In this document: positions 3 through 10,937 of the stretch, piece after piece
How the letters are laid out: the number at the start of each line of letters is the position of its first letter
Position numbering within the stretch: position 1 is the first letter of the stretch
Assembly: GCA_003695455.1 (NCBI GenBank)
Contig: RFJF01000586.1
Span: forward strand, 1 to 11,011
Origin: Chloroflexota bacterium
GTDB taxonomy: Bacteria > Chloroflexota > Anaerolineae > 4572-78 > J111
Reading direction: 5' to 3'
DNA: 11,011 nt
Program-made: the position numbers and the translations under genes
Notes under the pieces: generated by a model
What the model was told of the DNA's origin: nothing
Seen by the model: only the letters and a program-made list of their open reading frames with translations
Database searches by the model: none

Positions 3-8
3 TAAGAT
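3..8 (+). promoter_or_regulatory. possible -10 box of the regulator promoter
   Basis: The hexamer TAAGAT matches four of six positions of the -10 consensus. Its first base lies 24.5 bp upstream of the centre of the operator at 20-34. In the well-formed promoter at 8259-8287 the -10 box lies 25.5 bp upstream of the centre of the same operator. That shared geometry is the main reason for the call. Any -35 box would lie outside the window. Confidence 0.35.
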
Positions 9-73: not shown

Positions 74-1075
74 ATGCCGGTTACCATCAAAGACATTGCC
101 AGGGTAGCGGGGGTGTCACACACCACCGTTTCACGGGCACTTAAAGGGAACCCGGCCATCAGCATTGAAACCACCGACCGCATTCGGAAAATCGCGCAGC
201 AAATGGGGTACACCCCCAGCGCTGTGGCTCAAAGCCTGCTCTCCCAGCGAACCCAAACCATCGGCATGGTCATCACCACCATTGCCGACCCCTTTGTAGT
301 ACGCGTGGTTGAGGGCGTTGAGGGTGTTGCCCAGGCCGCCGATTACAGTGTTTTTCTTGCCACTTCTCACAACAATCCCAACCAGGAAAATGCCGTGGTT
401 GAAACCTTGCACCGTCGCCGGGTTGATGCAATCATTGTTACCTCATCACGCGTGGGCAGTTTGTACAGTTCTCGTCTGGAGCAGATCAAAATTCCCATTG
501 TTTTGATCAACAACCAGGAAGAGGGCGAGTACCTGCACTCCATCCGCAGCAACGATATTCAGGGCGCGCGGCTGGCCGTTGAATACCTGCTGGGTCTGGG
601 CCATCGCCGGATTGGCTACCTGGGCTGCACCAACCGGCCCCGCTCCAATCAGCGCCGGTTGAGCGGCTACCAGGCGGCCCTTCAGCAAGCTGGTATTCAA
701 CCGGACCCCAACCTGATTGCCAACGTCGCTGCCGATACCGACATCGAACGGGGGAAAGCCGGGTTTCATCTTTACGCACAGGCCGGCGCTACCGCCGTAT
801 TTTGTTTCAACGACCTCACCGCCATCGGTTTGATGATGGAAGCCCGGCGGCAGGGCGTGGCGGTTCCGGCTCAACTGAGCGTGATGGGCTTTGACAACAT
901 TGAAGCGGCAATGTATGTAACCCCACCGCTAACCACGGTGGCCCAGCCGTTGCTGGAACTGGGCCGGCAGGCGATGCAAATGACGCTTGCATTGCTGGAC
1001 GGCAAACTTGTGCACGATATCCGCCTGCCCTGCACCCTGGTTGAGCGCGAATCCGTTGCCGCGCCGGGGCGGTAG
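74..1075 (+). CDS. LacI-family transcriptional regulator, probably of inositol catabolism
   Basis: A 333-residue LacI/GalR-family repressor, the usual length for the family. Residues 4-23 form the N-terminal helix-turn-helix (TIKDIARVAGVSHTTVSRAL). Residues 48-60 form the hinge with the typical leucine pair (AQSLLSQRT). From residue 61 on there is a periplasmic-binding-protein-like effector and dimer domain, including a GLGHRRIGYLG segment and a GFDNIEAAMYVTPPLTTV segment. The start at 74 is chosen because the family motif begins two residues later and a GGGGGGAAGA purine run precedes it. A longer frame from 20 would start inside the operator itself. Operators of matching sequence at 20-34 and 8295-8320 suggest that it represses itself and iolMN. 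The ligand is inferred from the neighbours to be inositol or a pathway intermediate. Confidence 0.93.
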   Translation: MPVTIKDIARVAGVSHTTVSRALKGNPAISIETTDRIRKIAQQMGYTPSAVAQSLLSQRTQTIGMVITTIADPFVVRVVEGVEGVAQAADYSVFLATSHNNPNQENAVVETLHRRRVDAIIVTSSRVGSLYSSRLEQIKIPIVLINNQEEGEYLHSIRSNDIQGARLAVEYLLGLGHRRIGYLGCTNRPRSNQRRLSGYQAALQQAGIQPDPNLIANVAADTDIERGKAGFHLYAQAGATAVFCFNDLTAIGLMMEARRQGVAVPAQLSVMGFDNIEAAMYVTPPLTTVAQPLLELGRQAMQMTLALLDGKLVHDIRLPCTLVERESVAAPGR

Positions 1076-2236: not shown

Positions 2237-3271
2237 ATGCCTGCAAAACTTCCGGTTGGAATCATTGGGTTGGGGCGAATGGGGCAGGTTTACGCCCGCC
2301 AACTGGCCGCCATGCCCGAAGTTGACATCGCCATTGTGTCTGATGTGCTGGCCGACCACGCCCAAACCTTTGCCGCCGAAATCGAGGCCAAAAGCTGGTC
2401 AACCGACTACCACGACGTGCTGGACCACCCCGACGTGCGGGCGGTGTTCATTATTTCACCCACCAACACCCACGCCCAAATTCTGGTAGACGGCGCTGCC
2501 AGCGGCAAAGCCCTGTTCTGCGAAAAACCCATCGCCCTGACCGTGGCAGAGACCGACCGCGCCATTCAGGCCGCAGAACAGCACGGCGCAATGGTGCAGG
2601 CCGGTTTTATGCGCCGCTTTGACCCGGCCTACGCCGCCGCCAAACAGCAAATTGAAGATGGAGTCATCGGCACGCCCACCACGTTTAAAGCCATTGGGCG
2701 CGACCCATTCTGCCCGCCTCTCCATTTTGCGCCCCGCGCCGTCAGCGGCGGCCTGATTCTGGATATGGGCATCCACGATTTTGACCTGGCCCGCTGGCTG
2801 ATGAACACCGAAGTACACCGCGTTTACACCGAAGGCGGCACGCTCGCCTTTCCGGAACTCAACGACGTGGGCGATATTGACAACGCCGTGGTCAACCTGC
2901 GCTTTGAAAACGGCACCATTGGCAATGTAGAAGTCAGCCGCAACGCCGTGTACGGCTACGATATCCGCACCGAAATTCTGGGCACCGAGGGCGGCATCAA
3001 CATTGGCCAGTACCGGAAAACGGCGCTGGTTACGCTGACCCGGCAAGGCGCCACCCACGATCTTATCCCCTATCTGCATGACCGTTTCATCCCCGCATAC
3101 ATCAACCAAACCCGCGATTTTGTAACCCGCGTCATCAACAACCAACCTCCCGCCATCAACCTGTACGATGCCCGCGCCAGCCTGATTGTTGGCCTGGCCG
3201 CCACCCGTTCATTTGACGAAGCCCGGCCGGTGGAACTCTCGGAGTTTCCGCCCCTGCCGAACGCCGGTTGA
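2237..3271 (+). CDS. iolG: Gfo/Idh/MocA dehydrogenase, inositol dehydrogenase type (second copy)
   Basis: A 344-residue paralogue of the preceding gene, with the same layout: GIIGLGRMGQ (Gly11, Gly13, Gly16), CEKPIA (Lys97), and SGGLILDMGIHDFDLARWL (Asp176, His180). All expected catalytic residues are present, so it should be active. The two proteins align along their whole length but differ in the loop before the active-site motif (PEPPPIEYIKVSGG against PFCPPLHFAPRAVSGG), which lies close to the substrate pocket in this family. It may therefore use a different stereoisomer, for example scyllo- or D-chiro-inositol, or a different cofactor. It starts 11 nt after the first copy with a GGGAG ribosome site, so the two are co-translated. 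The exact substrate is uncertain. Confidence 0.82.
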   Translation: MPAKLPVGIIGLGRMGQVYARQLAAMPEVDIAIVSDVLADHAQTFAAEIEAKSWSTDYHDVLDHPDVRAVFIISPTNTHAQILVDGAASGKALFCEKPIALTVAETDRAIQAAEQHGAMVQAGFMRRFDPAYAAAKQQIEDGVIGTPTTFKAIGRDPFCPPLHFAPRAVSGGLILDMGIHDFDLARWLMNTEVHRVYTEGGTLAFPELNDVGDIDNAVVNLRFENGTIGNVEVSRNAVYGYDIRTEILGTEGGINIGQYRKTALVTLTRQGATHDLIPYLHDRFIPAYINQTRDFVTRVINNQPPAINLYDARASLIVGLAATRSFDEARPVELSEFPPLPNAG

Positions 3272-3507: not shown

Positions 3508-4614
3508 GTGAAGTTTAAAAGTGTAGTGTGGGTAGTGCTCACTATGATGCTGGCCAGCCTGTTGGCCGCCTGCGGGCAATCGCAGGTTGTGGAGAAGGTA
3601 GAAACGGTTGAAGTTGAAAAAGTAGTGACCGTTGAAGTTGAAAAAGAAGTAGAAAAAGTAGTGACCGTTGAAGTTGAAGCCGCCCCGGCCGAAACTCAGC
3701 AGGAAACCGCGGCCCCGGCCAGCCAGGGCAACCGCTCCGATATCCGGATTGTGGTGGTCAGCCACGGTCAGGCTTCCGACCCGTTCTGGTCAGTGGTAGC
3801 CAACGGCGTACAACAGGCCGCCACAGATATGGGCGTCACGGTAGAATACCAGGCCCCGCAAACCTTTGATATGGTGGCCATGTCTCAATTGATTGATGCC
3901 GCCGTAGCCACCAACCCGGACGGGCTGGTGGTGTCCATTCCCGATGCCGACGCGCTGGGCGACTCAATCCGCGCGGCCGTGGATGCCGGCATCCCGGTTA
4001 TTTCAATGAACTCCGGCAGCGACGTGGCCAAAGAACTGGGCATTCTGGTTCACGTAGGCCAGACTGAATACGAAGCCGGTTTTGGCGGCGGCGAGCGCAT
4101 GGGCGCGGCCGGTGTAACCAAAGCCATCTGCATTAACCAGGAAGTAGGCAACGTGGCGCTGGACCTGCGCTGCCAGGGTTTTGCCGATGCCTTGGCCCAA
4201 ACCGGCGGCACGTCTGAAGTGCTGGCCGTTGACCTGGCCGACCCAATTGACGCCCAGCAGCGCGTCTCGGCGGCGCTGACGGCCAACCCCGATATTGACG
4301 GCGTGATGGCCCTGGGGCCAACCGGTGCCGCGCCCGCTATGGCCGCGCTTAAAGACGACGGCCTGCTTGGTCAAATTAAACTGGCAACGTTTGACCTTTC
4401 GCCGGAAGTGCTGGAAGCCATCCGTGACGGAGATGTGTTGTTTGCCATTGACCAGCAGCAGTATCTGCAGGGCTACCTGCCTATTGTGCTGCTGACACTG
4501 TACAACACCAACCTCAATACCATTGCCAACGATGTACTGATGACCGGTCCCGGGTTTGTAACCCAGGATACCGCCGCCCAGGTGATTGATCTGGCCGCGG
4601 CAGGCACGCGCTAA
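3508..4614 (+). CDS. CUT2-family sugar ABC transporter substrate-binding lipoprotein, probable inositol binder
   Basis: A 368-residue secreted lipoprotein that captures substrate for the importer encoded by the next two genes. From the GTG start it has a short basic n-region (KFK), a hydrophobic core, and a lipobox Leu19-Ala20-Ala21-Cys22, so it should be anchored by Cys22. Residues 23-72 are a Val/Glu/Lys-rich repetitive linker followed by an Ala/Pro/Gln stretch. From about residue 74 a ribose-type periplasmic-binding fold begins ([16 protein letters not shown]), with [21 protein letters not shown] and [12 protein letters not shown] later. Binding proteins of this class take ribose, fructose, rhizopine or inositol. 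Inositol is inferred from the neighbours only. A start at 3487 would put the ribosome site inside the gene and lengthen the signal peptide n-region with EEKH. Confidence 0.88.
3616..3678 (+). repeat. direct repeat in the lipoprotein linker
   Basis: A perfect 27-nt direct repeat occupies 3616-3642 and 3652-3678, with unit start points 36 bp apart. The shorter word GTTGAAGTTGAA occurs three times (3607, 3631, 3667). It encodes alternating Val-Glu/Val-Thr segments (EKVVTVEVE) of the linker between the membrane anchor and the binding domain. Identity at synonymous sites suggests recent slippage or duplication. Confidence 0.85.
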
Positions 4615-4626
4615 TCTGTAGCAATT

Positions 4627-4665
4627 GGCAGGCAGCAAGCCGTAACTTTGAACTTGCTGCCTGCC
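4627..4665 (+). repeat. hairpin between binding-protein and permease genes
   Basis: GGCAGGCAGCAAG (4627-4639) and CTTGCTGCCTGCC (4653-4665) are perfect 13-bp arms with a 13-nt loop, starting 12 nt after the binding-protein stop. No T-run follows (GTTAATCTG), so it is unlikely to be a full terminator. In ABC-importer operons a hairpin in this position commonly protects the upstream mRNA from 3' exonucleases or partly attenuates transcription, giving more binding protein than permease. That role is inferred here. Confidence 0.8.
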
Positions 4666-4691
4666 GTTAATCTGAAAAAGAGGAGACAGTT

Positions 4692-5738
4692 ATGGCAACA
4701 ACAACTGCCGCACAAAAAGACGAACGTATGGCTCAAACCGGGCTAATCACCCGGCTGCTCAGAAGCCCGGAACTGGGCGCGCTGGCCGGGGCCATTGTTG
4801 TTTGGGTATTTTTTGCCGTTGTGGCCCCCAATGCCTGGTTTAGTTTACGCGGCACCGCCACCTACCTGGAAGTAGCCGCCAGTTTGGGCATTATCGCCGT
4901 GCCGGTGGCCCTGCTGATGATTGGCGGCGAGTTTGATCTTTCAGTAGGCTCAATGGTCGGATTATCGGGGGCAATCATGGCCATTTTGGCCAGTGTGATG
5001 GGCATGCCGCTGTGGGTGGGCGCGCTGGTAGCACTGGTTGTGGCTCTGTTTGTGGGCTGGCTCAATGGCATTATGGTTGTTAAAACCGGGCTGCCGTCTT
5101 TCATTATTACGTTGGGCAGCCTGTTTATTATTCGCGGGTTAACCATCGGCGTGACCCGGCTGATTACCGGCCGTACCCAAATTGGCAGCCTTGATGATAT
5201 GCCCGGCTTTACAATGATGCGCTACATCTTTGCTGTTGATATTCCGGTTATGGGCGCCAATGTTTCAATTTCGGTACTCTGGTGGCTGCTGATTGGCGCC
5301 GTTGCAGCCTGGGTTTTGTTACGCACCCAGGTTGGTAACTGGATTTTTGGCGCCGGCGGCGCGGCGCAGGCAGCCCGGCAGGTGGGTGTGCCGGTCAACC
5401 GGCTGAAAATCGCGCTCTTTATGACCACCGCCACCGCCGCATGGCTGCTGGCAACCATCCAGGTTATCACCGTAAAATCAATGGATACCCTGCGCGGCGA
5501 ACAGCTTGAATTTCAGGCCATTATTGCGGCGGTTGTGGGCGGCAACCTGCTCACCGGCGGCTATGGTTCGGCCATTGGCGCAGTACTGGGGGCACTCATT
5601 ATTGGGATGGTTCGGCAGGGGGTGGTTTTTGCCGGGGTCTCTGCTGACTGGTTCCAGGTCTTTATGGGCGGCATGTTAATTCTGGCGGTGTTGATCAACA
5701 ACTACATCAGAAAACGAGCGGAGGCGGCACGACGATGA
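4692..5738 (+). CDS. CUT2-family sugar ABC transporter permease
   Basis: A 348-residue integral membrane protein of the RbsC/FrcC type, expected to form a homodimeric channel in the cytoplasmic membrane. After about 25 polar residues there are multiple hydrophobic segments (from about 28-47, 61-77 and 88-125 onward, to a last one ending near residue 338). The family signature [10 protein letters not shown] is at 78-87. The later [25 protein letters not shown] segment (split here by motif only) is also typical of the family. A good AGGAG ribosome site lies 6 nt before the ATG. The stop overlaps the ATPase start by 4 nt (ATGA), indicating translational coupling. Sugar specificity cannot be read from the permease. 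Only one permease gene is present, as is usual for CUT2 systems. Confidence 0.9.
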
Positions 5739-6592
5739 GTACAAACAATATTCCACGCGTTGAAGTTAGAAATATCTCCAAATATTTTGGCAACGTCATT
5801 GCCCTCAGCGATGTCTCGATGGCAGTACGCGCCGGCGAGGTGATGTGCCTGCTGGGTGATAACGGCGCCGGTAAATCCACTCTCATCAAAACGCTGTCCG
5901 GGGTTCACCAGCAGAGTGAAGGGCAATACTTTGTGGAAGGTGAAGAAGTTCGCTTTAACTCCCCCCGCGATGCGCTGAACCGCGGAATTGCCACCGTGTA
6001 CCAGGATTTGGCTATGATTCCGCTCATGAGCATCTCGCGCAACTTCTTTTTAGGCTCAGAACCCACCAAAGGCATAGGGCCGCTCAAACGATTTGATATA
6101 GCATTTGCCAACCGGGTGGCCCATGAAGAAATGGCTAAAATGGGCATTGATATCCGCGATCCTTCCCAACCGGTGGGCACGCTCTCCGGTGGTGAGCGCC
6201 AATCCGTAGCCATTGCCCGCGCTGTCTATTTTGGGGCCAAAACCCTGATTTTGGATGAGCCAACAGCCGCGCTCGGTGTAAAACAGGCCGGAACCGTACT
6301 GCGTTACATTGCCCAGGCGCGGGCACGCGGGCTGGCAGTGGTGTTCATCACCCACAACCCGCACCATGCCTACGCCGTTGGCGACAGGTTCACCATTCTC
6401 AAACGGGGCCGCACCTTTGGCACTTTTACCAAAGAGGAACTAAGCCGCGAAGAAATGGTGCGCATGATGTCGGGCGCGGATGAACTGGATGCCCTGACCC
6501 ACGAATTACAGGAATTTGAACACACCGATCAACTTAAAGCCGAAGGCAAACTCAGTGAAACAGAGCAGCAGTTGTCAGACAAATTAGGTTAG
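5735..6592 (+). CDS. single-domain sugar ABC transporter ATPase (FrcA-like)
   Basis: A 285-residue nucleotide-binding subunit that powers the importer at the inner face of the membrane. Walker A is GDNGAGKST (41-49), the Q-loop Gln is Gln90 (ATVYQDLA), the signature is LSGGERQ (150-156), Walker B is LILDE (171-175), and the switch histidine is His207 (FITHNPHH). All are intact. It has one ATPase domain, unlike RbsA, MglA and AraG, which carry two in tandem, so it must work as a homodimer like FrcA of the fructose importer. A charged C-terminal tail of about 45 residues (from about 240) is rich in Glu, Lys and Leu. It overlaps the permease gene by 4 nt and is followed 9 nt later by the pentapeptide-repeat gene. 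Confidence 0.93.
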
Positions 6593-6601
6593 GGGGCTAC
6601 T

Positions 6602-7228
6602 ATGACCGAACTGACACCGTGGCAGATTTACGATCTGCTCAACCGGCCCAAACCGTTGTGGCTGGCCGGCTGTGATTTGAGCCAGAGCTATCTCAACGGC
6701 GCAGACCTGTCAGAATCAGATTTACACGGCGCCAACCTGAGCGGGGCCAATTTGTCCCGGGCAAATTTAAGCAACACCAATTTGTCTGGGGCTGACCTGT
6801 CTGGGGCTGACCTGTCTGGGGCAATTCTCCGTGAAACCAACCTGCAAAACGCAAACCTGACAGGCGCCAATCTGGAAGACGCAAACCTGATTCAAGCAGA
6901 TTTGCAGAGCGCCAATCTGAGTCAGGCTCAACTAACGCGGGCAAACTTTAGGCAGGCTAATCTGGATCATGCCAATCTGCAAGATGCACACATGGTTGAA
7001 GCCACGCTCAGAGAAGCCCAGGCGGTGGCCGCCAACCTGAAAAATGCCAATCTGTTTGAGGCAACCTTGCTAAAAACAATTCTCAAACAGGCCAATCTGG
7101 AAAATGCCAATCTGGAAGGCGCGCATCTGCGCGGGGCCAATCTGTTTGATGCCAAACTTGACGGGGCCAACCTGACAAACGCCAACTTGTACGGCGCCAT
7201 GAATCCACAGGGTGACGTGTACGACTAA
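6602..7228 (+). CDS. pentapeptide-repeat protein, function unknown
   Basis: A 208-residue protein made almost entirely of pentapeptide repeats of the form A(N/D)LXX. An 18-23-residue N-terminal cap ([17 protein letters not shown]) is followed by about 35 uninterrupted units from residue 24 to 198, then a 10-residue tail. Such proteins fold as a right-handed square beta-helix with four units per turn, so about nine turns are expected. No signal peptide or membrane segment is seen, so it is probably cytoplasmic. Start choice is supported by the GGGGG run before the ATG and the 9-nt gap from the ATPase gene, which places it in the transporter operon. Some family members mimic DNA and protect gyrase, but most have unknown roles. 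No function is assigned here. A link to the transporter is suggested only by position. Confidence 0.92.
6783..6822 (+). repeat. 15-bp perfect tandem repeat inside the pentapeptide gene
   Basis: The unit TGTCTGGGGCTGACC is repeated at 6783-6797 and 6798-6812, with a partial third copy to 6822. Each unit is one pentapeptide (LSGAD). Identity at the DNA level contrasts with the diverged codons of other units and suggests recent slippage or unequal exchange that adds single repeats in frame. Confidence 0.9.
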
Positions 7229-7293: not shown

Positions 7294-7334
7294 GTGTTGC
7301 GTGTTCAGTTGCAGCCTGCTTTGTCACGCAACAC
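7294..7334. repeat. intergenic hairpin, copy 1 of a related pair
   Basis: GTGTTGCGTG (7294-7303) and CACGCAACAC (7325-7334) form a perfect 10-bp stem with a 21-nt loop. It lies in the 189-nt gap between the pentapeptide-repeat gene and the epimerase gene. The first 13 bases and last 10 bases are identical to those of the hairpin at 9587-9625. No T-run follows. The rest of the gap holds a CCGGCGCCGG palindrome (7367-7376) and no clear promoter. It may be a mobile or REP-like intergenic element, an mRNA-stabilising structure, or a weak terminator. Confidence 0.75.
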
Positions 7335-7417
7335 AAGCAACGCAATCAAAGTAAAGAAAAAACTTTCCGGCGCCGGCAAAATCAGCACACGGCAAATCTG
7401 TTAGCTGTGAGTGACAC

Positions 7418-8239
7418 ATGACAAGAAAATTGGGCGTTTGCACCTGGACATTTGGCGAGATGCCGCTGGCCGAAATTGCGGACCGGCTGGCGGCGCTCAG
7501 CTTTGACGGTGTAGAATTGATGGGTAACCTCTTGGCATATTCGGCCCGCGAGGCAGCCCAAATTCTGCGCGACCACAATTTGCAGATATTTTCTCTGACC
7601 CCCGATAACGTGGACCTGGCCCACCCCGATGGCGCTGTGCGCGGGCAGGCCGTAGATTACTACCGCCGCCTGCTTGACTTTGCCGCCGAACTTGGTGGTG
7701 CGCCGCTGGTATCTTGCCACGGCTATGTGGGGCGCATCAAGGCAAAACGCTCTCAGGCCGATGAGTACCGGCTGTTTGTAGAGGCGGTGCGGCAGGTGGC
7801 TGCCCACGCCCAAAGCCTCAACCTGAAACTGGTCATAGAAGTACTCAACCGCTATGAATCGCACCTGGTCAACACCGGCGCAGACGCCGCAAAATTTGTA
7901 ACCGATGTGGGCGCGGCCAACGTGGGCATTCTGCTGGATGCCTACCATATGAATATTGAAGAAAGCAATCCGGCGCTCGCGTTGCAACAGGCCGGCAACC
8001 GGCTGTGGCTGTACCACGCCGCCGACTCAAACCGGCAGGCAATTGGCCGGGGCCACATTGATTTTTTGGCCCAACTGGCAGCGCTGGACGCCATCGGTTA
8101 CGGCGGCCCGGTGATTCTGGAATGTACCGCGCCCGGCCCCAACCCCTTCACCCCCATCAAAGACAAAGACTCGCTGAACTGGCTGGAAACCTACTTGCAG
8201 GAATCCCAACACCGGCTTCGCCACAATCAGGTAGAGTAG
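7418..8239 (+). CDS. iolO: TIM-barrel sugar epimerase, probable 5-keto-L-gluconate epimerase
   Basis: A 273-residue AP-endonuclease-2-like TIM barrel of the ketose 3-epimerase family. The expected metal ligands are Glu141 (VIEVLNRYE), Asp174 (GILLDAYHMN), His200 (LYHAADSNR) and Glu235 (VILECTAPG). His177 and Arg206 occupy the usual substrate positions. All six are spaced exactly as in D-tagatose 3-epimerase. The NRYE, YHMNIEE, HAADSNR and GRGHIDF motifs also recall Thermotoga maritima IolO, which converts 5-keto-L-gluconate to D-tagaturonate. That role fits the IolM and IolN homologues downstream. The alternatives are an allulose or tagatose 3-epimerase, or a hydroxypyruvate-isomerase-like enzyme. 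The ribosome site before the ATG is weak. It is 189 nt after the preceding gene, and its own promoter is not evident. Confidence 0.78.
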   Translation: MTRKLGVCTWTFGEMPLAEIADRLAALSFDGVELMGNLLAYSAREAAQILRDHNLQIFSLTPDNVDLAHPDGAVRGQAVDYYRRLLDFAAELGGAPLVSCHGYVGRIKAKRSQADEYRLFVEAVRQVAAHAQSLNLKLVIEVLNRYESHLVNTGADAAKFVTDVGAANVGILLDAYHMNIEESNPALALQQAGNRLWLYHAADSNRQAIGRGHIDFLAQLAALDAIGYGGPVILECTAPGPNPFTPIKDKDSLNWLETYLQESQHRLRHNQVE

Positions 8240-8258: not shown

Positions 8259-8287
8259 TTGACAACCCTGCTGACTTGTGATATATT
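8259..8287 (+). promoter_or_regulatory. strong sigma-70-type promoter of iolMN
   Basis: A perfect -35 box TTGACA (8259-8264) is separated by 17 bp from TATATT (8282-8287), five of six matches to the -10 consensus. The start site should fall at about 8293-8296, directly at the edge of the operator palindrome. A 7-bp inverted repeat, TCACAAG (8245-8251) and CTTGTGA (8275-8281), brackets the -35 box. Confidence 0.88.
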
Positions 8288-8294
8288 TCCTGCA

Positions 8295-8320
8295 CGGCTA
8301 TGCACACGTGTGCATAGCCG
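8295..8320 (+). promoter_or_regulatory. LacI-type operator O2 on the iolMN promoter
   Basis: A perfect 26-bp palindrome centred on CACGTG, with the half-site CGGCTATGCACAC and its exact complement. It shares 14 bases with operator O1 at 20-33. It begins at the predicted transcription start, an ideal place for steric repression. The LacI-family protein encoded at 74-1075 is the obvious candidate ligand. An RNA copy would also form a long hairpin at the 5' end of the transcript, which may add stability. Confidence 0.88.
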
Positions 8321-8392: not shown

Positions 8393-9568
8393 ATGAAAGG
8401 TTTAATTTTAGACGCAACGTGGGAACCCAAAGCCGATTACAAAGTATCGGACTGGGAAAAAGAAACCGGCAAAGCCATTACCGGCAACAGCATTTGGCGG
8501 CACCCCAAACTGGAAGTCCGTGAAAAACCAGACCCCAAAATCAAACCGGACCAAATTCTGCTCGAAGTGCAAGCCTGCGGCGTGTGCGGCTCGGATATGC
8601 ACTTTTATGAAACCGACGACCAGGATTACATCCTGTATCCCGGCCTCACCAAGTTCCCCAGTATTTTGGGCCACGAACTTTCGGGCCGGGTAGTAGAAAC
8701 CGGCAGTGAAGTTACCGATTTGAAAGTGGGCGATATTGTGACCGTAGAAGAAATGATTTGGTGCGGTCACTGCACCCCTTGCCGCAACGGCTACCCCAAC
8801 CACTGCACCCATCTGGAAGAAATTGGCTTTACCATTGATGGCGCGTTTGCCAACTACCTGGCAATTGGCGCCAAATTTGCCTGGAAAATTGACTCGATTG
8901 CCGAACGCTTTGGCAGCGAAGCCAAAGCCTTTGAAGTAGCCGCCATGACCGAACCCACCTGCGTGTCATACAACGCTATGTTCGAGCGGGCCGGCGGATT
9001 CCGCCCCGGCCACTATGTGAGCATTTTTGGCACCGGTCCCATCGGGCTGGCCGCCGTGGGGCTGGCCGAAGCCGCCGGCGCCGGGATGATTGTGGCCTTT
9101 GAAGTTTCTGCCGAACGCCGCGAAATCGCCAAAAAACTGGGCGCAGACCACGTGTACGACCCCCGCGAGGTATCTCCGCACGAGGTGATGATGGAACTCA
9201 GCAAAGGCGAAGGCTTCAACTTTCACGTTGAGGCCGCCGGTGCGCCGCACCTGACCGTGCCGGAAATGGTCAAGAGTCTGGCTATCAACGGTAAAATTGT
9301 TCAGATTGGCCGCGCAGCTAAAGATGTTCCGCTCTATCTGGAAACATTCCAGGTGCGCCGCGCCCAATTCTTTGGCGCGCAAGGCCACTCGGGCCACGAA
9401 ACCTTCCCCAACGTCATCCGCATGGTGGCCTCGGGCCGGCTGGACCTCAGCCCCATGATTACCGCCCGCTACGAGCTGGACAAAACCGTTGAGGCCATTG
9501 CCAAAGCCACCGAACGCAAAGACGGCAAAATTATGGTTTTCCCCAACGGCATGTTGAACGGTCACTAA
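8393..9568 (+). CDS. iolM: zinc-dependent medium-chain dehydrogenase, probable scyllo-inosose 3-dehydrogenase
   Basis: A 391-residue zinc alcohol dehydrogenase. The catalytic zinc site is Cys65 (CGVCGSD), His94-Glu95 (GHELSG) and Glu187 (TEPTC). The structural zinc site is Cys124, Cys127, Cys130 and Cys138 (CGHCTPC..C). The NAD-binding fold has GTGPIG at 213-218 with Glu237 at the end of the second strand. A 30-40-residue N-terminal extension (KGLILDATWEPKADYKVSDW) and FYETDDQDYILYPGLTKFP resemble Thermotoga maritima IolM, which oxidises scyllo-inosose to 3-dehydro-scyllo-inosose. Known chemistry and the adjacent IolN homologue support this. Threonine or sorbitol dehydrogenases are the main alternatives. 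A GGAGG ribosome site precedes the ATG by 6 nt. The leader is about 100 nt and carries operator O2. Confidence 0.85.
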   Translation: MKGLILDATWEPKADYKVSDWEKETGKAITGNSIWRHPKLEVREKPDPKIKPDQILLEVQACGVCGSDMHFYETDDQDYILYPGLTKFPSILGHELSGRVVETGSEVTDLKVGDIVTVEEMIWCGHCTPCRNGYPNHCTHLEEIGFTIDGAFANYLAIGAKFAWKIDSIAERFGSEAKAFEVAAMTEPTCVSYNAMFERAGGFRPGHYVSIFGTGPIGLAAVGLAEAAGAGMIVAFEVSAERREIAKKLGADHVYDPREVSPHEVMMELSKGEGFNFHVEAAGAPHLTVPEMVKSLAINGKIVQIGRAAKDVPLYLETFQVRRAQFFGAQGHSGHETFPNVIRMVASGRLDLSPMITARYELDKTVEAIAKATERKDGKIMVFPNGMLNGH

Positions 9569-9586
9569 ATTGACCAGATAAAATCC

Positions 9587-9625
9587 GTGTTGCGTGTTCT
9601 GCAACTTGTGCAGAACACGCAACAC
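9587..9625. repeat. intergenic hairpin, copy 2 of a related pair
   Basis: A perfect 17-bp stem (9587-9603 with 9609-9625) with a 5-nt loop ACTTG lies 18 nt after the iolM stop and 42 nt before the iolN start. Its outer arms, GTGTTGCGTGTTC and CACGCAACAC, match those of the hairpin at 7294-7334. There is no T-run after it (AAACACCCATTT). It would separate iolM from iolN on the same transcript and may tune their relative expression. Confidence 0.88.
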
Positions 9626-9667
9626 AAACACCCATTTAACCCCTCAAATTAATTTAGGAGAAAAAAA

Positions 9668-10792
9668 ATGACAAACAATGCCCCCGCAGGCTGGTTGGCA
9701 ACAAATCAGGTTGACCTGTTTTTTGAAGATGATGAAATTGGCCGGATGAAAAAGGAAATCTGGGAAGCAGACGAAGCGGCGGTTGACGCCATGCTGGCCG
9801 AGTACGGCATGCCCGCGCCGGTGCAGTGGGGCGACCCCCGGGTTTACCTGCAAATGATGCCCCGCAACAAGTTGATTGAACAGCGCCGCAAAAATGACAT
9901 CGTCTTTTTGCCCATCGGCTGCACAGAAAACCACGGCATGCACCTGCCCAGCGCCACCGACACCCTGTTTGTCAGCCAGATTCTGGAAGGCGTGCGCCGC
10001 TACGTTGATAACCGGGACGGCGCGCCGCCGGCCATTTCTCTGCCGCCGCTTAACTTTGGCGCGCACCCCTACCACCACATGGGCATGCCCGGCACCGCCA
10101 TTGTCCGCGAAGACATTGCCCGTGAAATGCTGATTGATGTGATGCTGGGGCTGTGGAACGACGGTTTCCGCAAAATAATTATGATTAACAACCACGGCCA
10201 CCTGTGGATGCTGGAAGCAGCTATTCAACAGTTCCAGAAACGCTACCAGTTGCCCGGCATTTTCCGCGTGCTGGATTGGCACCGTGCCGTGCGAGAGTTT
10301 TTCCGCGAGAAGAAATTTGGCGGTGAATACGATTCGACCTTTGTTCACGCTGCCGAGGCCGAAACCTCGCTGGCGCTGTACCTCTTCCCGGAAATGGTAG
10401 AAATGGAATATGCCGTCAACACGCAGGGCAAAGGCTACATTCCCGACGGCCACTTTGACAAATCAGTGGACCCGTACCGCCGGCCCAGCCGCTGGAGCGA
10501 AGGCGAAGGCCACTTTGCCATCGAAGTGTCTGCCACGCCGGAAGGCGTGGTGGGGCTGGCCGCCCACGGCGAGGCTCGCAAGGCCAAAAAACCACTGGCC
10601 GCCATTTTGCGCTACCTGACCATTCTGCACGATGACATTCTCAAAGCCTTCCCCGCCGGAAGCGTGCCACCCGTGGAAGAAGTCACCCTGCGCACGGCAG
10701 AAGAGATGGAACCCTATCTGCGCGAACCCCAAAGCGAAGGCTGGAAATCAGTCTACCAACTGCCGCGCATCGGCCAGAGCAACATTTATTAA
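9668..10792 (+). CDS. iolN: creatininase-family hydrolase, probable 3-dehydro-scyllo-inosose hydrolase
   Basis: A 374-residue metal-dependent amidohydrolase-like protein of the creatininase/formamide hydrolase family. The metal-site motif PIGCTENHGMHLPSATD holds Glu87, His89 and Asp98. INNHGH holds His176, and HAAEAETS (227-234) holds the expected acidic ligand Glu230 or Glu232. An N-terminal region of about 75 residues precedes the core, and a C-terminal region after about 330 ends without a known domain. In Thermotoga maritima the IolN member of this family hydrolyses the ring of 3-dehydro-scyllo-inosose to 5-keto-L-gluconate. Its position directly after an IolM-like gene makes that the best call. 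Creatininase itself is the main alternative by family. An AGGAG ribosome site lies 7 nt before the ATG. The gene ends the iolMN transcript before a strong terminator. Confidence 0.82.
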   Translation: MTNNAPAGWLATNQVDLFFEDDEIGRMKKEIWEADEAAVDAMLAEYGMPAPVQWGDPRVYLQMMPRNKLIEQRRKNDIVFLPIGCTENHGMHLPSATDTLFVSQILEGVRRYVDNRDGAPPAISLPPLNFGAHPYHHMGMPGTAIVREDIAREMLIDVMLGLWNDGFRKIIMINNHGHLWMLEAAIQQFQKRYQLPGIFRVLDWHRAVREFFREKKFGGEYDSTFVHAAEAETSLALYLFPEMVEMEYAVNTQGKGYIPDGHFDKSVDPYRRPSRWSEGEGHFAIEVSATPEGVVGLAAHGEARKAKKPLAAILRYLTILHDDILKAFPAGSVPPVEEVTLRTAEEMEPYLREPQSEGWKSVYQLPRIGQSNIY

Positions 10793-10908: not shown

Positions 10909-10937
10909 TTGCACCTTGCCGGATGGTGTTCTATAAT
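10909..10937 (+). promoter_or_regulatory. promoter of a downstream operon outside the window
   Basis: A perfect -10 box TATAAT (10932-10937) has TTGCAC (10909-10914) 17 bp upstream. Only the TTG core matches the -35 consensus. The predicted start is about 10943-10946, next to an operator-like palindrome. No start codon with a ribosome site is seen before the window ends, so the gene served lies to the right. Confidence 0.65.

Follow-up and report, generated by a model that had tools for sequence, protein, structure and literature searches.

Regulators of the LacI family bind even palindromes with a central CG, 16–22 bp long and mostly located 30–140 bp before the start codon; in the family survey autoregulation is common, seven orthologous groups of inositol regulators carry the name IolR, and the Chloroflexi are among the phyla studied (Ravcheev et al. 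2014, PMC4052901). The recognition code of the family has residues 15 and 16, which precede TVSR, setting half-site bases 5 and 4, and Arg20 going together with G at base 6 (Camas et al. 2010, PMC2978694). IolR of the Thermotoga maritima inositol regulon is a ROK-family protein that was unresponsive to every sugar tested (PMC3750489), the Caulobacter IolR motif is GGAA-N6-TTCC (PMC2597717), and corynebacterial IpsA is a LacI-type regulator that is released by myo-inositol and controls inositol-lipid and cell-wall genes (PMC3899939). Compared with these systems, the locus described here resembles the T. maritima regulon in placing inositol genes under one local regulator, but the regulator is a LacI-family protein; with Caulobacter IolR and IpsA it shares the link to inositol and the palindromic sites, whereas the motif (IolR) and the targets (IpsA) differ. 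The NCBIfam and Pfam match lists of the regulator contained LacI models and no ROK-type models.

The window analysed is an entire contig (C924) of 11,011 bases from a draft genome of 4.38 Mb in 929 contigs. It opens with the gene of the LacI-family regulator (74–1075, plus strand), which carries the helix GVSHTTVSR, matches PF00356 and PF13377 above cut-off and is the putative binder of both operators described below; its likely start codon at 74 was picked by alignment with relatives. The regulator gene is followed on the same strand by iolG, encoding inositol 2-dehydrogenase (1209–2225; TIGR04380, 474 bits against a cut-off of 355), a second IolG-like dehydrogenase (2237–3271; 351 bits with the same model, slightly below cut-off) and a sugar importer of substrate-binding protein, permease and ATPase (3510–6592). 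A pentapeptide-repeat protein (6602–7228) lies within the transporter-iol gene run, and homologues occur in the corresponding run of two relatives (L043 and L045). Then come, again on the plus strand, an IolO-like epimerase (7418–8239), whose best NCBIfam match is IolO, iolM for scyllo-inosose 3-dehydrogenase (8393–9568; NF041097, 549 bits against 450) and iolN for 3-dehydro-scyllo-inosose hydrolase (9668–10792; NF041098, 314.5 bits against 245). For the Thermotoga-type pathway IolG, IolM and IolN score above the curated cut-offs and the IolO-like protein, at 139.5 bits against 300, below. The IolM and IolN enzymes belong to the pathway that has been reported from T. maritima. A long inverted repeat, GTGTTGCGTGTTCTGCA...TGCAGAACACGCAACAC, lies between iolM and iolN (9583–9629), and a shorter stretch resembling it is found near 7296–7335, before the IolO-like gene; it is perhaps a dispersed repeat.

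The iolM promoter and its palindrome

The iolM promoter consists of a -35 element TTGACA (8259–8264, plus strand) and, after a 17-bp spacer, a -10 element TATATT directly preceded by TG (8282–8287, plus strand). With 11 of 12 matches it was the top promoter-like match of the window, although the promoter scan of the window overall gave no excess (5 promoter-like sites against a shuffle mean of 5.2). The perfect 26-bp palindrome CGGCTATGCACACGTGTGCATAGCCG (8295–8320, no strand assigned) is located at the predicted iolM transcript start. It begins 8 nt beyond the last -10 base, which would put its start at or beside the usual +1 position. It is the longest even palindrome in the window, the runner-up being 14 bp, and from base composition 0.00019 perfect palindromes of at least 26 bp would be expected per window. 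The original prediction of this arrangement before iolM (TTGACA, 17-bp spacer, TATATT, perfect 26-bp palindrome) was confirmed at 8259–8320. A chance palindrome would find nothing in its favour beyond the shortness of the hexamer CACGTG; with about 0.0002 expected per window and conservation across the class, its probability is negligible.

Within the palindrome the predicted operator is ATGCACACGTGTGCAT (8300–8315), the conserved part of which, GCACACGTGTGC, occupies 8302–8313. When the window was scanned with this 16-mer at up to three mismatches, two matches were obtained against 0.10 expected in shuffles: 8300–8315 (exact) and 20–35 (two mismatches), with no operator-like site before the sugar importer at 3510–6592. 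The second match, ATGCACACGTGTGCGC (20–35; like the first, not assigned to a strand), is a second predicted operator upstream of lacI, ends 38 bp ahead of the likely start codon, and has an equivalent at the lacI gene of relatives. Half of the lacI promoter lies beyond the contig edge: a weak possible -10 element, TAAGAT (3–8, plus strand, 4 of 6 matches), is visible, and the -35 element would fall out of sight because the contig starts at base 1. The 14-base core ATGCACACGTGTGC that had been claimed to recur before lacI is present at 20–33 and 8300–8313. The claim of a shared operator stands in that both places hold this core, but the palindromic part common to both is only the 12 bp of GCACACGTGTGC.

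The LacI-family regulator encoded at 74–1075 very probably uses this palindrome as its operator. The regulator combines a helix-turn-helix with a sugar-binding domain, the palindrome is even with a central CG and a core of 12–16 bp, and sites are found both at the regulator's own promoter (20–35) and at a linked target (8300–8315). Compared with LacI-family operators in the survey, the form is the same, an even palindrome with central CG, but the palindrome of the window is longer at 26 bp (PMC4052901). In the proposed mechanism a repressor dimer would sit on ATGCACACGTGTGCAT, which spans roughly +6 to +21 relative to the predicted iolM-iolN start; when bound it would block transcription initiation or escape, while the copy at 20–35 would let the repressor control its own operon from lacI-iolG onward. 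The repressor would come off the DNA when it meets a sugar-derived ligand formed in inositol or hexonate breakdown, so that iolM-iolN and the genes from lacI-iolG onward are transcribed. Binding, repression, start site and ligand are inferred.

Another LacI-like palindrome, TGTAACGTTACA, was found in two exact copies 53 bp apart near the contig end (10946–10957 and 10999–11010), the first of them 8 nt past a TATAAT (10932–10937). These putative operators probably belong to a different regulon past the contig end.

Conservation of the site and pairing with the recognition helix

The neighbourhoods of iolM were gathered from relatives (80, giving 81 of 107 matches with the window included; the remainder were mostly weaker matches), and a site was defined as a gene-linked CACACGTGTG with at most one mismatch. 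Such a site was present in 61 of the 77 neighbourhoods with IolM at least 55% identical, the window among them, and absent from 16, some of which have contigs that end close by; the neighbourhoods with weaker IolM gave 0 of 4. The 76 gene-linked sites comprise 45 before lacI, 27 before iolM and 4 before iolN, iolG or iolO, and 13 further sites in these loci lie out of reach of any such gene. A strong promoter ended just upstream of 57 of the 76 sites; on the opposite strand none of the 76 had one, and among shuffled upstream sequences the share was 2.2%. A further 24 sites were kept out of this statistic because the promoter score had oriented them. The gap between the -10 element and the 16-mer peaked at 4 and at 9–12 nt across 83 of 100 sites, and is 12 nt in the window. 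Half-site position 6 was G in 74 of 76 sites and position 7 was T in 56 of 76, neither being forced by the search.

At the genome level, the exact 12-mer occurred 63 times in 61 genomes (own and relatives) against 5 times for its reversed control, and was held by 25 of the 28 genomes with an iolM match compared with 9 of the 33 without. Scatter through unrelated genes and absence before iol genes of relatives had been named beforehand as refuting outcomes; the palindrome proved not to be scattered, and its conservation before iol genes held and extends to the linked lacI gene. The analysis shows the sequence, the strong promoter immediately before it, conservation throughout the class at the promoters of iolM and lacI, and pairing with one class of recognition helix.

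The pairing was examined in two sets of LacI genes, from each of which one gene was dropped for too little upstream sequence. The first came from 46 LacI genes in the neighbourhoods, with enough upstream sequence required and the window's own lacI outside the table. LacI genes beside iolM with His-Ser or His-Thr as recognition residues had the site upstream in 40 of 40 cases, compared with 1 of 3 for His-Pro. An APS-helix LacI (L040) was counted with the site, in an upstream region common to it and a divergent iol regulator. The second set came from one scan of named genomes and held 80 LacI loci, 5 of which share DNA with the neighbourhoods already gathered. Named relatives of the window's regulator are mainly from Anaerolineae and other Chloroflexota, next from Nostoc and Acidobacteria. 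In the named set the site was found at 30 of 38 His-Ser or His-Thr genes from Chloroflexota, Cyanobacteriota and Acidobacteriota, grouped by record titles with one unplaced record (Bacterium HR08) included, and in a stricter listing 4 of the 7 records from Nostoc or Mojavia had it. The predicted repressor–site pairing recurs in Nostoc and Bryobacterales, which belong to two further phyla. One locus (L189) carries, besides a normal ATGCACACGTGTGCAT site, a perfect 48-bp palindrome without spacer (24 pairs) about 93 bp before the LacI start.

His-Thr LacI genes from other groups, mostly Bacillota plus Syntrophaceae, one Deltaproteobacteria record and an unplaced bin, had the site in 0 of 12 cases. 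The helix pair as sole determinant of the site is therefore rejected. Val-Thr or Ile-Thr LacIs of Bacillota were preceded by AAAACG- or GAAACG-type sites in 19 of 19 cases, a raw count without shuffle control. Set against the recognition code, His-Thr here pairs with C-A and G, the G at position 6 being expected with Arg after TVS, but the pairing fails in 12 of 12 proteins of other groups (PMC2978694). The His-Thr/His-Ser rule may already be among the 48 classes of Camas et al. (PMC2978694).

The own genome of the window holds the exact 12-mer in three places against none for the reversed control, namely the two window sites and a third that precedes another LacI gene; at up to three mismatches the 16-mer occurs in 10 places against 2. 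The third exact copy (L154:3976–3991, G000:C385) precedes a LacI gene with a VSVTT helix by 134 bp; nagA follows that gene, and in the sister species a site likewise lies upstream of a LacI gene with this helix (L136:5001, G001:C15). The own genome also encodes a second VSH-type LacI on contig C437 (helix VSHSTVSR, 45% identical to the window's regulator), a His-Ser protein that could compete for the operator. Directly before the start of its gene (L121:1461–1479, G000:C437) is an odd palindrome, TTACGCACA-G-TGTGCGTAA, in which the same half-site surrounds one central base in place of CG, giving a different spacing; the centre, one base shorter, might keep the two paralogues apart. Both the C437 protein and the third copy, found in the own genome and the sister species before the VSVTT-type LacI and nagA, would suit an operator that serves mainly another His-Ser/His-Thr paralogue or several regulators, with the cluster ends not forming one closed regulon. 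The different spacing before the C437 gene argues against this. So does the linkage, as no LacI other than that of the cluster is linked and its gene has the site upstream in relatives, and we regard such an arrangement as very improbable.

Outer arms of the palindrome

Contiguous pairing beyond the 16-mer, of at least four pairs, was found at 10 of the 76 sites against 0.38 expected when left and right arms were re-dealt; 0 of 2000 shuffles reached 10, which is not an exact probability because arm shuffles break the relatedness of the sites. At least three extra pairs were present at 14 gene-linked sites from 12 loci. Among 19 oriented sites from the family and order of the window, 8 had at least three extra pairs and 11 had fewer, 8 rows of this listing coming from the 24 sites oriented by promoter score. 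The letters of the arms vary, being CGGCT/AGCCG in the window, CTCA/TGAG (iolM) and TCTGGTT/AACCAGA (lacI) in the sister species and CCAGCA/TGCTGG in another genus of the family. Perfect operator palindromes measure 26 bp in the window and 30, 28, 36 and 42 bp in other species, and the longest arms (L099, L044 and the lacI of L040) extend to the -10 element. The 42-bp example lies in the region L099:8351–8392 (G208) and the 36-bp one in L044:12112–12147 (G073), both with outer arms reaching -10.

Since the outer letters differ across species, a 26-bp operator read whole by the protein is rejected; the operator proper would be 12–16 bp, and recognition by the protein probably does not extend into the outer 5-bp arms. 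Pairing that persists while letters change (the same 10 of 76) could also be a sign that the palindrome acts as RNA: the iolM messenger would carry an 11-bp hairpin at its 5' end, which would protect it or attenuate transcription. The transcript would start at the hairpin, and the palindrome appears in a terminator scan. This reading is very improbable: G-U pairs were not enriched in the arms (28 against 44.8 expected at positions 9–12 of 100 sites, the 24 extra ones included), a deficit due partly to the excess of Watson-Crick pairs; the longest arms reach the -10 element, upstream of any predicted transcript start; a T-rich stretch followed 3 of 76 sites against 7 of 76 in the mirrored control; and the core letters are almost fixed and track the LacI helix. 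An attenuator or 5' messenger hairpin as the main function is rejected on the first two of these grounds, and an intrinsic terminator on the third, as no conserved T-run was found.

Selection at the RNA level fails to explain the arm pattern, given the lack of G-U enrichment and the extension of the longest arms to -10, and the change of arm letters with pairing kept is apparently a DNA-level effect. As a tentative explanation, somewhat doubtful as it stands, the operator may be a focus of palindrome growth: in single-stranded DNA the palindrome can form a hairpin, so that template switching in replication would copy one flank onto the other while the letters turn over. Of the DNA-level causes known to us, this process is the simplest. 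Template switching at hairpins reportedly occurs at quasipalindromes of Escherichia coli. It has also been argued for RNA genes (PMC8794818). If palindrome growth is the cause, long perfect operators would record mutation bias and not protein specificity, and apparent covariation would arise without any RNA. The arms are in any event a warning that paired, letter-changing flanks alone prove neither RNA structure nor a longer operator.

Breadth of the regulon

Two genomes of the window's family (G005 and G009), in which no IolM match was found, retain the regulator at 62–64% identity with the same helix. Their sites lie before the regulator, before an operon of an unassigned gene, gnd and phosphofructokinase, and before D-mannonate oxidoreductase with a protein best matching nickel-dependent hexonate epimerase (below cut-off). 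The own genome of the window has a two-mismatch copy before gnd, located upstream of any clear promoter and not after it. In other phyla the genes nearby would suit breakdown of inositol and sugar acids: a Bryobacteraceae genome (L197) has IolB and IolC there, a Bryobacterales genome (L187) has IolB, an Acidobacteria genome (L199) has IolD, and Mojavia (L179) has glucuronate isomerase and D-mannonate oxidoreductase. Because the site precedes the gnd and mannonate-oxidoreductase operons in two relatives for which no IolM match turned up, the regulon is probably wider than inositol, and the ligand may therefore be a hexonate in place of inositol. The proposal that one regulon joins both cluster ends is supported by the conserved sites and the helix pairing, and is modified in that the regulon probably extends past inositol and the operator measures 12–16 bp.

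A full-text literature search for GCACACGTGTGC returned unrelated matches only, and a search by titles and abstract openings, lying outside subscription journals, supplements and RegPrecise, listed no publication describing a regulon of this kind from Anaerolineae. Judged by sequence, the site is very probably a genuine and for the most part ordinary operator of the LacI family, with an unexplained arm pattern in addition; the finding stands out through the pairing across three phyla and through this arm pattern. The pairing reaches its limit at the His-Thr LacIs of other groups, where it failed in 12 of 12 cases. For a Chloroflexota regulator group known mostly from metagenomes, the analysis provides a concrete predicted operator and a helix–site pairing (His-Ser/His-Thr with GCACACGTGTGC), and since both also occur in Nostoc-type cyanobacteria and Bryobacterales, regulons should be predictable there.
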